Assembly (NCBI RefSeq): GCF_014695715.1 | Contig: NZ_JACJOT010000017.1 | Location: 124,001-188,000, forward strand | DNA: 64,000 bases | Reading direction: 5' to 3' | Origin: Microcoleus sp. FACHB-68 | GTDB lineage: Bacteria; Cyanobacteriota; Cyanobacteriia; Cyanobacteriales; Oscillatoriaceae | In this document: positions 10,437-59,715 of the stretch, in pieces | How the letters are laid out: every line of letters starts with the position of its first letter | Numbering within the stretch: the stretch's first letter is position 1 | The notes under the pieces: model-generated | Told to the model about the DNA's origin: nothing | Seen by the model: the letters and a program-made list of their open reading frames with translations, nothing else | Database searches by the model: none | Made by a program: the position numbers and the translations under genes

Positions 10437-10485
10437 GTGCTGAGTTCTGACGAATGAGGAATGAGTGGGGAAGAGAGTTTTGAGT

Positions 10486-10546
10486 GCCCCATGCCCCTAC
10501 CTTTAGGTTGGCGAAGCCTTGACCCATGCCCCATGCCCCATGCCCC
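10486..10546. repeat. GGGGCAT / CTTCGCCAACCTAAAGGTA composite repeat (inverted copy)
   Basis: Reverse-complement copy of an interspersed repeat made of ATGGGGC heptamers flanking a unique core that reads CTTCGCCAACCTAAAGGTA on the other strand. Two related copies lie at 49.75-49.89 kb and one at 57.0 kb. The heptamer part alone occurs inside priA. Confidence 0.85.
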
Positions 10547-30786: not shown

Positions 30787-30845
30787 CCAGTTAGCTAGGT
30801 GGGGGGTTTCACCCCTCAGTGTAGTGGACGATTCCCCAACTGGTC
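30787..30845. ncRNA. Structured segment, possible small RNA or leader element
   Basis: Outer arms ACCAGTT and AACTGGT enclose an inner stem GGGGGGTTTCACCCCTC-like (GGGG-TTTCA-CCCC). Together they form a nested hairpin of about 58 nt. I know no family for it. Confidence 0.25.
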
Positions 30846-31099
30846 TACGTTCCCTAATCCGGCACAACAACTGTCACATTTACGAAAGGAATTCAAAAAG
30901 GTAATTGTAGTGATTGAATGTGGCCGGTCAGCTTCAACGAAAAAAGCCTGTTGATTCAATCCTCTGTGAGTTAGAGGTTGCTCGCCTTTGTGTGTTGCCG
31001 GTGCTCTCCAACCGTGTCTAGCTTGACCCTTAGTATCGCTGAATACAAAGCTTCTCTTCCTTCTGTTGACCCACCCATCAGGATATCTAGCAAAGAAGT

Positions 31100-31190
31100 G
31101 AGTGCTGAGCTTTTGAGTGCTGAGTGCTGAGTGCTGAGTGCTGAGTGAAAGAAAGGCACAAGGGGAGTGATGAGTGCTGAGTGTTGAGGG
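31100..31190. repeat. GAGTGCT heptamer repeat (STRR)
   Basis: Many tandem and near-tandem copies of GAGTGCT, with GAGTGTT variants, downstream of the Sua5 gene. The related GAGTGTT/GAGTTGA repeat occurs upstream of the same gene at 31911-31935. Confidence 0.85.
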
Positions 31191-31240
31191 AGAGAAGGGG
31201 AGAGGGTAGGATGAGGAGAGAAAAGCCCCATTCTTAGTTC

Positions 31241-31903
31241 CTACTCGCTGACGCCTGATACCCAATTAGCTACGGCTTGCCATCCTAAACCTTGTCGCAC
31301 AACCACGGCTTCTGGGCCGGTTAAATCTAAAATGGTGGAAACCTGATATCCTGGCTCTTGGCCATTGTCCACGATCACATCCACTAATTTGTCTAGCTGG
31401 TCGAACAGTTCTGCCCGCCCAGGGGGGTTATCGAGCGCCGGCTTTGTTTCATCATCATTCAGCAAGTGAGCTGAGGTGGAAATGATGGGATTGCCCAGCG
31501 ACTGTAACAGCGACTGACACACTGCATGATCGGGAACCCGAATGCCGGTGGTTTTACGCTTGGGGTTCATCACGAGCTTGGGCACTAACTTGGTTCCCGG
31601 CAACAAGAATGTGTAGGTTCCGGGTATCAAATGCTTCATGAGGCGATAGGCTTCATCTGTCACCACCGCATAGTGAGCCACATTAGAGAGCGAAGGACAC
31701 AGGAAGGTGAGGGGCTTGTCGTTGGATAGCTGCTTGATGCGCCGCACGCGCTCTACTGCTGCTTTAACGTTGAGGTCGCAACCGATGGCATACACTGTAT
31801 CGGTGGGATATAGCATGACTGCTCCATTCCGAAGCGCATCCTTAATTTCCTCGATTTTGCGTGCTTGGGGTGTGTCGGGATGAATTTCGTAAAGAGTAGC
31901 CAT
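31241..31903 (-). CDS. Sua5/YciO/YrdC family threonylcarbamoyl-AMP synthase-like protein
   Basis: 220 residues from the ATG at 31903. The frame is open upstream, but that part only encodes the heptamer repeat. Core motifs are GAVMLYPTDTVYAIGCDL, RRIKQLSNDKPLTFLCPSL, PGTYTFLLPGTK and KRKTTGIRVPDH. TsaC-type enzymes make threonylcarbamoyl-AMP for the t6A modification of tRNA; the shorter YciO branch may not, and this single-domain protein cannot be split between the two with certainty. It is divergent from larC. Confidence 0.88.
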   Translation of the reverse strand: MATLYEIHPDTPQARKIEEIKDALRNGAVMLYPTDTVYAIGCDLNVKAAVERVRRIKQLSNDKPLTFLCPSLSNVAHYAVVTDEAYRLMKHLIPGTYTFLLPGTKLVPKLVMNPKRKTTGIRVPDHAVCQSLLQSLGNPIISTSAHLLNDDETKPALDNPPGRAELFDQLDKLVDVIVDNGQEPGYQVSTILDLTGPEAVVVRQGLGWQAVANWVSGVSE

Positions 31904-48940: not shown

Positions 48941-49744
48941 ATGGCGGGAAATAGCGCACACGTCAAACGGTTGCTGCAAACGAAACAATGTCAGGGGGGC
49001 GATCTGAGCGAGGCAAACTTGGCTCAATTGAATTTGAGTGGTGCTGACCTCAGCGGTGCTAAGTTAATGTTTGCCAACCTGCATGGGGCCAATCTTAATA
49101 GTGCGAACTTGAGCGGTGCCGATCTCTGTTTTGCGAACCTCGTAGCAGCCGATCTAACGAATGCCGATCTCAGGGGGATCGATGGCAAAGGACTAAATTT
49201 GTTAGATGCCAAACTCCCTCGTGCTAATTTCAGCGGTGCTGATTTGGGGTTTTCCACATTTGTTAACAGCAATTTGCACGAAGCCAATCTCAGCGGTGCA
49301 GACTTGGATGGTGCCAATATGATAGGAGCCAAACTCAATAGTGCTAACCTCAGCGGTACTGACTTGGGAGGTGCCAATTTAGGTCATGCTGAGCTGATAG
49401 GGGCTAATCTGTCGAATGCTAACTTGAGTGATGCTCGGTTGGTGGGTGCTGACTTGAGTGATGCGAATTTGAGTGGGGCGAACTTAAGTAGCGCCAATTT
49501 GTTGAATGCGAATTTAAGTGGGGCGAATCTGAGTGGGGCGAATCTGAGTGGGGCGAATCTGGCGAACGCGCAACTAGAGGGTGCGATAGGACTCTACATG
49601 GACACTCAAGTTGGGACTCGCCGGCATGACACCCAGAGGTCAGGCACGCCCCAGTCAAGCCCAGCTTATGTTACTTTTTCCCAGCCTGGGGCATATCGCT
49701 CAGATTCGCCAACTTTAGGATTGCCACATCCGGGATTGCCTTAG
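48941..49744 (+). CDS. Pentapeptide repeat protein
   Basis: 267 residues. From about residue 25 to 215 it is an almost unbroken run of A(D/N)LSG-type pentapeptides, about 35 units, predicting a right-handed quadrilateral beta-helix. A short lead MAGNSAHVKRLLQTKQCQGG precedes it; the tail is Pro/Ser-rich. Such proteins are common in cyanobacteria and mostly of unknown function. The consensus drifts toward NLSGA at the C-terminal end, where the units are near-identical at DNA level, suggesting recent expansion. Confidence 0.93.
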   Translation: MAGNSAHVKRLLQTKQCQGGDLSEANLAQLNLSGADLSGAKLMFANLHGANLNSANLSGADLCFANLVAADLTNADLRGIDGKGLNLLDAKLPRANFSGADLGFSTFVNSNLHEANLSGADLDGANMIGAKLNSANLSGTDLGGANLGHAELIGANLSNANLSDARLVGADLSDANLSGANLSSANLLNANLSGANLSGANLSGANLANAQLEGAIGLYMDTQVGTRRHDTQRSGTPQSSPAYVTFSQPGAYRSDSPTLGLPHPGLP

Positions 49745-49887
49745 GGAATGGGGCATGGGGAATGGGGCATGGGGCATGGGTCAAGGCTTCGCCAACCTAA
49801 AGGTAGGGGCATGGGGCATGGGGCATGGGGCATGGGTCAAGGCTTCGCCAACCTAAAGGTAGGGGAATGGGGCATGGGGCATGGGGC
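49745..49887. repeat. GGGGCAT / CTTCGCCAACCTAAAGGTA composite repeat, two copies
   Basis: ATGGGGC heptamers surround two copies of the core CTTCGCCAACCTAAAGGTA (near 49786 and 49842). Same family as at 10.5 kb and 57.0 kb. Confidence 0.9.
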
Positions 49888-49990
49888 TATACCAATTCTG
49901 TGTGGATAGCCCGTTTTTAGGTTAGGTGCAGCACCGGCTTTCTTTGCCCACAGCCTGAGACTAAAGCCACCCTTTAAGTCTGTGTCCGAC

Positions 49991-56809: not shown

Positions 56810-57168
56810 TTCGCTTTCCTCCTACTAATGGTAATTGAGCTTAGAAGCTTCCTGCCGGCGCTGTTTTTAGCTTAATTGTTTTAAAACTTCTTTCAGTTCA
56901 CCATCGGCACCGCGCCGCAAAAGCAGTTGGGTCTAGTTAATTGGGATTCCCCTTGTAATGATAACATACGCATCGTTTATGCTTTGTTGGGGGATTGGGC
57001 ATGGGGCATGGGGCATGGGGGATTGGGCAAGGCTGCGCCAACCTAAAGGTATGGGCATGGGACTCAGGACTCAGGACTCAGGACTCAAGATAAAGTAAAG
57101 AGGGTCTAGCTTAGGGTTGAGTTTTCTGTGCGCCATGCAATGCTCACTTCACACTTCACTGTTGCGCT
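56810..57168. other. Upstream regions of the sigma factor and priA, with repeats
   Basis: 360 bp between divergent genes. The left half should hold the sigma promoter. The right half is filled by the composite repeat at 56989-57087, which ends about 80 bp from the priA start. Confidence 0.5.
56989..57087. repeat. GGGGCAT composite repeat plus GGACTCA heptamers
   Basis: ATGGGGC units around a core variant GGCTGCGCCAACCTAAAGG, followed by four copies of GACTCAG. Same family as at 10.5 and 49.8 kb. Confidence 0.88.
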
Positions 57169-59715
57169 ATGTATAAATATAAATGTGATTTTGATGTCAT
57201 CACCGGCATCGTCGCGGAACCAGGGGAATCTTATCGAGCCGGCACAGCGCAACAGCAGTGGATAGAAGTTCTAGTAGATTGTCCCGGTGCCCAAGGACTT
57301 TTTACTTACCGGCTGCCGGCAGGTTTAGAAATCCAACCTGGAGATATTTTAACGGTTCCCTTTGGCTCACAAAGCCTTGGCGCGATCGCTGTGCGATTCG
57401 TTGATCACCTACCGGCTGATTTAACACCCGATCAAATTCGAGAAGTCGAGGATGTCGTCAGCACCGGCTTCTTCCCCATCACTTATTGGCAACTCCTCGA
57501 ACAAGTTGCAAATTACTACTACACTCCCCTGATTCAAGTCATTCGCGCCGCCCTGCCTCCAGGTTTGCTAGGGCGAGCACAGCGCCGCATTCGCCTCAGC
57601 AGAACACAATTACCCAATCCATCGGCAACTGAAGCCTTCCTCTCACCCGTTGCCCGTCAGATTCTAGAATTACTGCAAGCCTCAAAAACCGGCGATTATA
57701 CATGGCAGTATATCCAGCGCCAAATCAGAGGTGCCAACCGAGGACTGCGAGAATTATTGAAACGGGGTTGGGTGGAAAGCTACTTAGAACCTCCCACCCA
57801 GGCTAAACCCAAGCAACAGCAAGCCGTAACTCTGGTGACAGAGACTTTTCCCACCGATCTCACTGCGCGGCAGCGGGAAGTTTTAGAAGTGCTGAGGCGT
57901 CGTGGTGGCGAATTATCGGTGACTGAATTGCTGCAAACGTGCAGTACCAGTTCATCTACCATCAAGAAGCTAGAGGAAAAAGGCTGCGTTGTGATTCAAC
58001 TGCGCGAAGTGTTGCGAATCCCCGTCGAGCCGGCGCAACCAGCAGACCAACCCAAAGAATTGACAGATCATCAAAGATGTGCAGTCGAAGCAATTGCCGG
58101 CATAAATGGATTCGCTCAAGTTTTGTTGCATGGCGTCACCGGCTCAGGCAAAACAGAAGTTTACCTACAAGCAATCGCGCCGGTTTTGCAACGCGGTGAA
58201 TCCGCCCTCGTGCTTGTCCCCGAAATTGGCCTTACGCCCCAACTCACTGACCGATTCCGGGCACGATTTGGCCAGAAAGTTTGTGTTTATCACAGCGCCC
58301 TTTCTGATGGGGAGAGATACGACACCTGGCGACAAATGCTCACCGGCACCCCTCAAGTCGTCATCGGCACCCGTTCTGCGATTTTTGCGCCGTTGCCCCA
58401 AATCGGACTAATCGTCTTAGATGAAGAGTACGATTCCAGTTTCAAACAAGATCAGCCGGCACCTACCTACCACGCTCGAACCGTCGCCCAATGGCGAGCA
58501 GAACTCACTAACTGCCCCTTAATATTAGGTTCTGCCACGCCTGCTTTAGAGACTTGGATAGAGGTAAAAGGGAAAGAGGGAGAGAATGCCCCATGCCCCA
58601 TGCCCCATTCCCCATCCCCCACCCACTATTTATCTTTACCAGAGCGTGTCCACTCGCGCCCAATGCCGCCGGTGGAAGTGGTGGATATGCGCCTAGAATT
58701 GCGTGCCGGCAATCGTTCCATTTTTAGCCGGTCGCTTCAAGACGCTTTGAGCCGGCTTCAGGCAACAGGTGAGCAAGGCATCCTATTCATTCACCGGCGA
58801 GGACACAGCACCTTCGTTTCTTGCCGCAGCTGCGGGTATGTGATTGAGTGCCCAAACTGTGACGTGTCTCTGTCTTATCACTACACCCATGAAGGTGCGG
58901 CAGAAGTGTTGCGCTGTCACTACTGCAACTATGGACAACTGCACCCGGAACGATGTCCAGAATGCAGTTCACCTTACCTAAAAAACTTCGGCAGTGGCAC
59001 TCAGCGGGTTGAGGAAGAATTAGGCAAGCAGTTTCCCCAATTGCGCGTGATTCGGTTTGATAGCGATACCACGCGCACGAAGGGCGCACACCGCAACCTA
59101 TTAACCCGATTTGCCAACCGGGAAGCTGATCTTTTAGTGGGGACGCAAATGCTCACAAAAGGCTTGGATCTGCCACAGGTGACGTTAGTGGGGGTTGTGG
59201 CGGCTGATGGGTTGCTAAATTTGGCGGATTTTCGGGCAGCGGAAAGGGCGGTGCAAACGCTGATGCAAGTAGCCGGTCGTGCCGGCAGAGGGGACGATCC
59301 AGGGCGCGTGATTGTTCAAACCTACTCGCCCGAACATCCAGCCCTCACAGCGGTGCGCCGGCATGATTATGAGCAGTTTATTGCGGCGGAATTGGAACAA
59401 CGGGCGGCGCTGAATTACCCACCCTACGGGCGTTTGATTTTGTTGCGATTAAGTGGTGCGGATGAGGCGGAAGTTGAGGCAACTGCTGAGCGTTTGGTTT
59501 CTGTATTGCAGCCGGCATCCGAAGTTCCTGTTTTTGAAATTTTAGGGCCGGCACCGGCACCGATCATGCGGGTGGCGAATCGCTATCGGTGGCATATTTT
59601 GCTAAAGTTTCCCCTTGATCTGCCGTTTGATCTGCCGGCTTTCGAGAGTTTACGCGCCGTTTGTCCAGGTTCGGTTAGTTTAACAATTGATGTTGACCCG
59701 TTAAATTTAGGGTAA
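57169..59715 (+). CDS. priA: Primosomal protein N' (PriA helicase)
   Basis: 848 residues, full length. The 3'-DNA-binding domain (WIEVLVDCPGAQGLFTYRLP), Walker A VTGSGKTEVYLQ, the DEEYD Walker B and the QVAGRAGRG helicase motif are intact. The zinc-binding cysteines are in CRSCGYVIECPNCD and CHYCNYGQLHPERCPEC. PriA restarts stalled replication forks. Residues about 465-484 (KGKEGENAPCPMPHSPSPTH) are an in-frame insertion encoded by the ATGCCCC heptamer repeat. It sits in the region after GSATPALETW, where homologues have a short variable loop. Confidence 0.96.
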   Translation: MYKYKCDFDVITGIVAEPGESYRAGTAQQQWIEVLVDCPGAQGLFTYRLPAGLEIQPGDILTVPFGSQSLGAIAVRFVDHLPADLTPDQIREVEDVVSTGFFPITYWQLLEQVANYYYTPLIQVIRAALPPGLLGRAQRRIRLSRTQLPNPSATEAFLSPVARQILELLQASKTGDYTWQYIQRQIRGANRGLRELLKRGWVESYLEPPTQAKPKQQQAVTLVTETFPTDLTARQREVLEVLRRRGGELSVTELLQTCSTSSSTIKKLEEKGCVVIQLREVLRIPVEPAQPADQPKELTDHQRCAVEAIAGINGFAQVLLHGVTGSGKTEVYLQAIAPVLQRGESALVLVPEIGLTPQLTDRFRARFGQKVCVYHSALSDGERYDTWRQMLTGTPQVVIGTRSAIFAPLPQIGLIVLDEEYDSSFKQDQPAPTYHARTVAQWRAELTNCPLILGSATPALETWIEVKGKEGENAPCPMPHSPSPTHYLSLPERVHSRPMPPVEVVDMRLELRAGNRSIFSRSLQDALSRLQATGEQGILFIHRRGHSTFVSCRSCGYVIECPNCDVSLSYHYTHEGAAEVLRCHYCNYGQLHPERCPECSSPYLKNFGSGTQRVEEELGKQFPQLRVIRFDSDTTRTKGAHRNLLTRFANREADLLVGTQMLTKGLDLPQVTLVGVVAADGLLNLADFRAAERAVQTLMQVAGRAGRGDDPGRVIVQTYSPEHPALTAVRRHDYEQFIAAELEQRAALNYPPYGRLILLRLSGADEAEVEATAERLVSVLQPASEVPVFEILGPAPAPIMRVANRYRWHILLKFPLDLPFDLPAFESLRAVCPGSVSLTIDVDPLNLG
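58584..58625. repeat. ATGCCCC heptamer repeat inside priA
   Basis: Five ATGCCCC/ATTCCCC/ATCCCCC units in reverse orientation to the intergenic copies, in frame with the priA coding sequence. Confidence 0.88.

Follow-up and report, generated by a model that had tools for sequence, protein, structure and literature searches.

Tandem repeats of different kinds lie in frame in one predicted disordered loop of cyanobacterial PriA

Introduction

How does a repeat that lies mostly between genes come to be read as part of a conserved replication protein? The question is raised by priA (primosomal protein N′, replication restart helicase) of Microcoleus sp. FACHB-68, located in the 64,000-nt stretch of DNA analysed here (hereafter, the window), which carries tandem ATGCCCC heptamers inside its coding sequence. 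Heptamer arrays in cyanobacteria have long been known. The priA tract is very probably an STRR-type array of the host's own dispersed family, which entered and was turned over in a disordered, tolerant loop that other lineages filled independently.

Results

An in-frame heptamer array within priA

The host gene is well assigned: its product scores 1099.1 bits against NF004066 (cut-off 813) and 655.6 bits against TIGR00595 (cut-off 230.35; both NCBIfam), homologues are present in 40/40 relatives, and the best named PriA loci are eight cyanobacterial ones at 57-70% identity, followed by Firmicutes at 41% or less. The original prediction of an ATGCCCC array in frame in the loop after GSATPALETW holds. 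TRF returns 5.1 copies of ATGCCCC at period 7 with 93% matches, that is, tandem 7-bp units, five of which can be counted directly in the sequence, and the reading frame stays open throughout the array, which occupies residues 473-484 of a loop (464-486) flanked by motif III GSATPALETW before and YLSLPERV after (Table 1). The insert is real, though the 15-20 extra residues first attributed to it are slightly too many: the array itself accounts for 12, and phmmer leaves 14 query residues unmatched at the loop against Klebsiella PriA (4NL4). The GSATP-to-VDMR span is 50 aa here, with medians of 43.5 in cyanobacteria and 36 in the outgroup.

Table 1. Coordinates of priA, its loop and related repeats (positions in the window)
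Feature	Position	Strand	Basis
priA, the gene that hosts the array (product 848 aa)	57169..59715	+	ORF list; NCBIfam NF004066/TIGR00595; homologues
Variable inter-lobe loop, codons 464-486, recurrent repeat site	58558..58626	+	Alignment of 24 PriA; loop extraction; pLDDT
(ATGCCCC)5 array in priA loop, residues 473-484, peptide APCPMPHSPSPT	58586..58621	+	TRF; pattern search
Intergenic ATGCCCC arrays flanking one core copy (24-mer on minus strand, 10498-10521)	10484..10546	+	TRF, pattern search, core search
Intergenic ATGCCCC arrays alternating with two 28-bp core copies (plus-strand 24-mers 49782-49805, 49838-49861)	49743..49889	-	TRF, pattern search, core search
Intergenic composite element upstream of priA: GGGGCAT array, 28-bp core (24-mer 57028-57051), (GGACTCA)4	56988..57087	+	TRF; core position

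A palindromic stem-loop of the RPE/REP type was not found in the priA loop, whose DNA folds just as its shuffles do (z 0.12). Secondary structure was likewise discarded as a feature of the array, the upstream core and the composite element of the congener G002, none of which folds better than shuffles. At the protein level, an AlphaFold2 model built from 24 sequences (mean pLDDT 75.5, pTM 0.64) gives residues 468-482 a pLDDT below 50, the longest such internal stretch of the model, bounded by the helix that follows motif III and by a strand at 485-490. The insert thus modelled probably sits in an unconserved, exposed linker joining the two helicase lobes. Comparison with solved chains, used only to check that the model is PriA-like, listed PriA 4nl4 (Z 27.0, 610 aligned residues, rmsd 4.9) as well as helicases such as Mfd and RecG.

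The heptamer as a dispersed repeat of its own genome

With up to two mismatches allowed, the ATGCCCC 14-mer is found 25 times in the window (0.60 expected), a count reached in 0/100 shuffles, and exact copies number 278 in the whole genome (6.53 Mb), where the reversed control has 0. Period-7 arrays were then classified in a 1.264-Mb sample of this genome (1-400 kb of contig C1, 1-800 kb of C6 and the window) with mechanically called ORFs: 55 out of 69 are fully intergenic, 4 run across ORF edges and 10 lie inside a called ORF. The view that the repeat is otherwise found between genes is mostly right, except that four arrays are clearly interior to three recognisable genes, namely priA, mutM (two arrays) and an Orn/Lys/Arg decarboxylase-like gene; the remaining in-ORF arrays are either close to the start of an ORF or in short ORFs that may not be real. 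Since ORFs cover 77-81% of the sequence and yet few arrays fall inside them, coding DNA is strongly depleted of heptamer arrays, as expected. With its tandem 7-bp units, dispersed and mostly non-coding copies and cyanobacterial host, the priA array has the defining traits of an STRR. Elsewhere in the window, an ACTCAGC-type heptamer array (31099-31188) lies within a 149-aa minus-strand ORF (30819-31265) of doubtful gene status.

ATGCCCC had been proposed as a protein-permissive element, a special status that we reject: about half of all heptamer classes (592/1172) can be read without a stop in either orientation, and 428 more in just one.

Congeners and the 28-bp core

In the own genome (G000) and two congeners (G001 and G002), priA has common flanks around the loop insert and a frame open through the array. 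Because these flanks are common to all three, the site would have been occupied before the three split. Between AATGCCC and CACCCA(C/T) the loop holds 5, 8 and 11 heptamer equivalents in G000, G001 and G002, respectively (divided by hand from the loop sequences); these are frame-keeping steps of three units, with a chance of 1 in 9 if there were no selection on frame. The loop of G002 contains a whole composite element, with a 28-bp core in place of four heptamer units.

This core consists of the 24-mer CAAGGCTNCGCCAACCTAAAGGTA followed by TGGG. The 24-mer is present in 123 copies in G000, 56 in G001 and 60 in G002 (one of these in priA), with 0 copies in the 37 other relatives, and is hence genus-specific; a composite element carrying it in the same priA loop bears out the proposal that an intergenic repeat has entered coding DNA. 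Of the 30 cores sampled in G000, 27 are flanked within 21 bp by heptamer-like units on each side, and another 2 on a single side only. Core-to-core spacings in that sample are multiples of 7 in 9/9 cases, with at least one exception in a longer list of cores (79 bp, G000:C8:976184 to 976263).

The intergenic array upstream of priA (core 24-mer at G000:C17:181028-181051) has both a core and (GGACTCA)4 in G000, both missing from G001 and G002. It shows a 42-bp difference in G002, which, like the 1 in 9 chance, weakens the case for frame selection behind the 5, 8 and 11 units of the loop. The presence of the core is therefore reversed between loop and upstream array, so that heptamer tracts gain and lose cores in both places. 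At 57060-57087, (GGACTCA)4 is found only in G000, where the congeners have unrepeated sequence beginning GGACTCG; by this comparison it is likely a recent birth of a heptamer array.

The same loop across cyanobacterial PriA

PriA was gathered from relatives and more widely across the class, using those of 154 matched genomes that had loci or fetched sequence, and the loop was located in 130 cyanobacterial and 46 non-cyanobacterial proteins. Calling arrays by a DNA-level tandem self-match score of at least 13 at lags 4-21, we found them in the loops of 21/130 cyanobacterial PriA, from about 17 genera (counted from genus codes plus two named records, L063 and L066), and in 0/46 non-cyanobacterial ones. 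The insertion is then not the one-off that it had appeared to be. A period of 7 is seen in 15 of the 21, 8 in five (three of them also with 7) and 9 in two; in L157 and L207 the only lag is 18, hits at lags 14, 16 and 21 reflect multiples of other periods, and no loop array among the 130 proteins was found at lags 4-6, 10-13, 15, 17, 19 or 20. Codon shuffling predicts at most 0.005 loops per lag, against the 15 observed at period 7. Since a 7-base period does not correspond to whole codons, the repeat originated at the DNA level, not through selection of a peptide.

The initial loop pattern failed for 35/216 PriA-like loci. Fourteen cyanobacterial ones among them were read separately, with a scored array in one of the 14 (L228), visible but imperfect repeats in L227 and none in L229; the remaining 21 belong to the outgroup range, one picocyanobacterium included. 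Five picocyanobacterial loci with a located loop (L094, L095, L123, L125, L129) were excluded from both groups.

Arrays outside the loop occur in only 7/130 cyanobacterial PriA. Four (L006, L062, L165 and L222) have tandem repeats in a second loop 300-320 residues before motif III, corresponding to about residues 140-157 here; L061 has an array near the N-terminus, and L171 and L175 have one each. An insert of about 60 bp in the second loop of G001 (near residues 145-157; L003:1408-1505) was considered as a dispersed repeat and rejected, being single copy in G001; in the congeners it has just a 24-bp match in G000 and no match in G002.

Loop peptides show no residue conservation and have opposite compositions by lineage (Gly/Arg/Glu-rich, Pro/Ser-rich or Asn/Ser/Lys-rich), and very short loops are kept in some lineages (e.g. 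L029, L172, L194). An insertion conserved at the residue level in many genera, the outcome that an alignment of PriA might have revealed, is thus not what we see: residues and motifs differ by lineage. The same data bear on the idea of a functional linker: the loop peptide (a Pro-rich binding segment, for instance) would be under selection for length or composition, with the repeats incidental to it. The longer GSATP-VDMR region of cyanobacteria fits such a linker, which is nevertheless quite improbable considering the unconserved residues, the opposite compositions, the very short loops of some lineages and a DNA period of 7.

Loop motifs and the host repertoire

Repeats in the loop vary by lineage, with ATGCCCC in G000 and G001, GGGGAGC plus GACTCAG in G021, CCCCAATC in G018, period-7 repeats of NHQSPIT type in G126 (L166) and of NSKFKIQ and STQNSEL types in G155 (L220), and nonamers in Hassallia (L063). 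Where tested, the loop motifs come from the local genome repertoire. Among 40 genomes the CCCCAAT motif CCCCAATCCCCAAT is richest in G018 (331 copies), whose loop holds CCCCAAT, and the GACTCAG motif GACTCAGGACTCAG is richest in G021 (129 copies), whose loop holds GACTCAG; the backward control for CCCCAAT is itself frequent in G003, G006 and G007, and that for GACTCAG is uninformative, being a member of the same repeat class. Copies of the ATGCCCC motif ATGCCCCATGCCCC in the same set number 311 in G006, 287 in G003, 278 in G000, 120 in G008, 116 in G007, 112 in G001 and 76 in G002. Local abundance is insufficient for a loop array, some repeat-rich genomes having none in PriA: no loop array was found in G010 (274 CCCCAAT copies) or G008 (120 ATGCCCC copies).

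The fillers are not restricted to tandem arrays. GTAG-type palindromes lie in frame in the PriA loop of two distant f45 genomes: two exact palindromes in G180 (G180:C1:2217545-2217616), out of 67 genomic copies, and one with a mismatch in G174 (G174:C34:195778-195798), which has 57 genomic copies.

Is priA special?

Two unselected genes, Mfd and CarB, served as controls in nearly the same relatives as PriA, with 30 loci per gene, fetched from just 30 of the 38-40 genomes matched in each gene search; no ORF was obtained for four CarB loci (L390, L399, L409, L411) nor for MutM L350. Arrays were found in 8/29 PriA loci (own genome excluded), in 2/30 Mfd loci, at two different places, and in 0/26 CarB loci (Fisher p 0.0023, computed over related genomes that are not independent). 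MutM, picked for the arrays it carries here, shows them in 4/29 loci, all in one loop; three belong to the own genus and one to G038. The mutM/Fpg gene of the own genome (L302:12023-12958; G000:C6:712023-712958) has two different heptamer arrays in that loop, with repeats also in congeners and G038.

In G155, a 0.4-Mb sample chosen to include its priA (one of its 'arrays' being a run of N) has seven arrays well inside six recognisable genes: PBP1C, priA (two arrays), a ClC/USP-like gene, LL-diaminopimelate aminotransferase, a U32 peptidase-like gene and a UvrD/Rep-like helicase, where the ClC/USP and U32 names rest on sequence reading and weak family matches. Tolerance of such repeats, which had been called uncommon, is so only in relative terms, as arrays occur in other genes both here and in G155, and the GGGGA(T/C)T arrays of Nostoc PCC 7120 are only 68% intergenic according to PMC4692102.

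Compared with the two controls, priA is enriched in arrays, yet it is not unique, and the evidence for a hot spot is thin. A genuine insertion hot spot, arising by targeting or repair-linked capture and with replication/repair genes preferred by repeats, would agree with the enrichment, with priA, mutM and the UvrD/Rep-like helicase being among the repeat-bearing genes of the samples, and with PMC3733652, which puts many intragenic REPs in replication/repair genes and doubts that this is chance. We regard it as unlikely: unrelated repeat types and variable boundaries at one protein position speak against a DNA target, the comparison relies on two unselected control genes and on genomes that share ancestry, and PBP1C, LL-diaminopimelate aminotransferase, the U32 peptidase-like protein and the decarboxylase are bearers outside repair.

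Frame breaks and assembly

Entry into a tolerant loop supposes that the frame is kept, and in two single draft assemblies, G022 (L227) and G029 (L228), the priA frame is broken inside the loop repeats. These breaks may be sequence errors, a split PriA or an off or broken allele, i.e. a possible exception to frame-keeping. In G036 (L229), the frame breaks just after a loop without repeats. In G042, G069 and G075 the PriA match runs into a contig edge in or near the loop, which suggests that loop repeats break these assemblies.

Two further readings turn on such cases. The array could be a contingency (phase-variation) tract in which heptamer gain or loss shifts the frame and switches PriA off: the 7-bp unit is not a multiple of 3 and lies inside a gene, so any single-unit change breaks the frame, as G022 and G029 might illustrate. 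It is a highly improbable reading, given that with about three consecutive perfect units here slippage should be slow, that the broken cases are single draft assemblies, and that the break without repeats in G036 makes assembly error plausible. Alternatively, repeat copies might have been misjoined into priA during assembly, as the contig edges in G042, G069 and G075 would allow; this is scarcely credible, however, with the frame open through the array in three congeners having the same flanks and with repeats in the loops of genomes in one or few contigs (G155, G126, G161, G180).

Discussion

Insertion and turnover in a tolerant loop is the reading that we prefer. The array and its open frame, its dispersed copies, the variety of repeats that this one site holds across about 17 genera, the whole element in a congener and the predicted disorder are all accommodated by the following course. 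Repeats would reach the loop by insertion or by recombination with dispersed copies, and arrays would lengthen or shorten in 7-base steps. Surviving alleles would be stop-free with a net change that is a multiple of 3 bases, only such alleles persisting because PriA must be made full length. A disordered surface loop would tolerate nearly any peptide, presumably at no cost to PriA activity, and would for that reason be filled independently in many lineages with the locally abundant repeat, be it heptamers, octamers, nonamers, a heptamer-plus-core element or GTAG palindromes. We infer that insertion and turnover of selfish repeats recur here, and that they do so because the loop is tolerant and not because it is targeted. 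On this best reading, the PriA loop is neither a targeted site nor a new domain. A more elaborate proposal, in which unrelated repeats are preferentially captured at the PriA loop phylum-wide and act in some lineages as a 7-base reversible frame switch on replication restart, is very improbable.

The loop amounts to a natural experiment on selfish DNA becoming protein, with one helicase loop, different repeats and origins readable from the host genome, and it reveals which parts of a core enzyme are free. It also calls for caution with draft assemblies, in which the repeats may break priA. The suggested bias of intragenic repeats to replication/repair genes becomes testable by counting.

Relation to known repeats

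Like other cyanobacterial STRR arrays, the heptamers described here are tandem, dispersed and mostly intergenic, with some inside genes. A heptamer array of this class was reportedly described by Vioque in 1997 within rnpB. Another STRR lies in the hoxW promoter (PMC2670836). What sets the present case apart from known STRRs is the ATGCCCC motif, a genus-specific 28-bp core nested in register with the heptamers, and repeated occurrence in a single loop of a conserved protein. In its placement the core resembles the small dispersed repeats of Nostoc punctiforme, which Elhai et al. reportedly described in 2008 as tiny elements beside or inside heptamer arrays.

Rickettsia palindromic elements (RPE), in-frame insertions in ORFs that are palindromic and about 150 bp long (PMC10969869), are similar in being small dispersed repeats read through in frame in conserved proteins; they differ in that ours is a simple heptamer array and that the repeat occupying the site changes from lineage to lineage. 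Intragenic GTAG/CGTC REPs, often in replication/repair genes and with loop tolerance proposed (PMC3733652), are a further parallel, given the GTAG-like palindromes in the PriA loop of G180 and G174, although the priA array of the window is not palindromic. PriA has 0 occurrences in the main text of that article, and no report of repeats in cyanobacterial PriA was found in the open-licence PMC literature. In-frame repeats in genes are thus already known from Rickettsia RPE, intragenic REPs and Nostoc heptamers; what is new is that unrelated repeat families have colonised one PriA loop repeatedly and independently.
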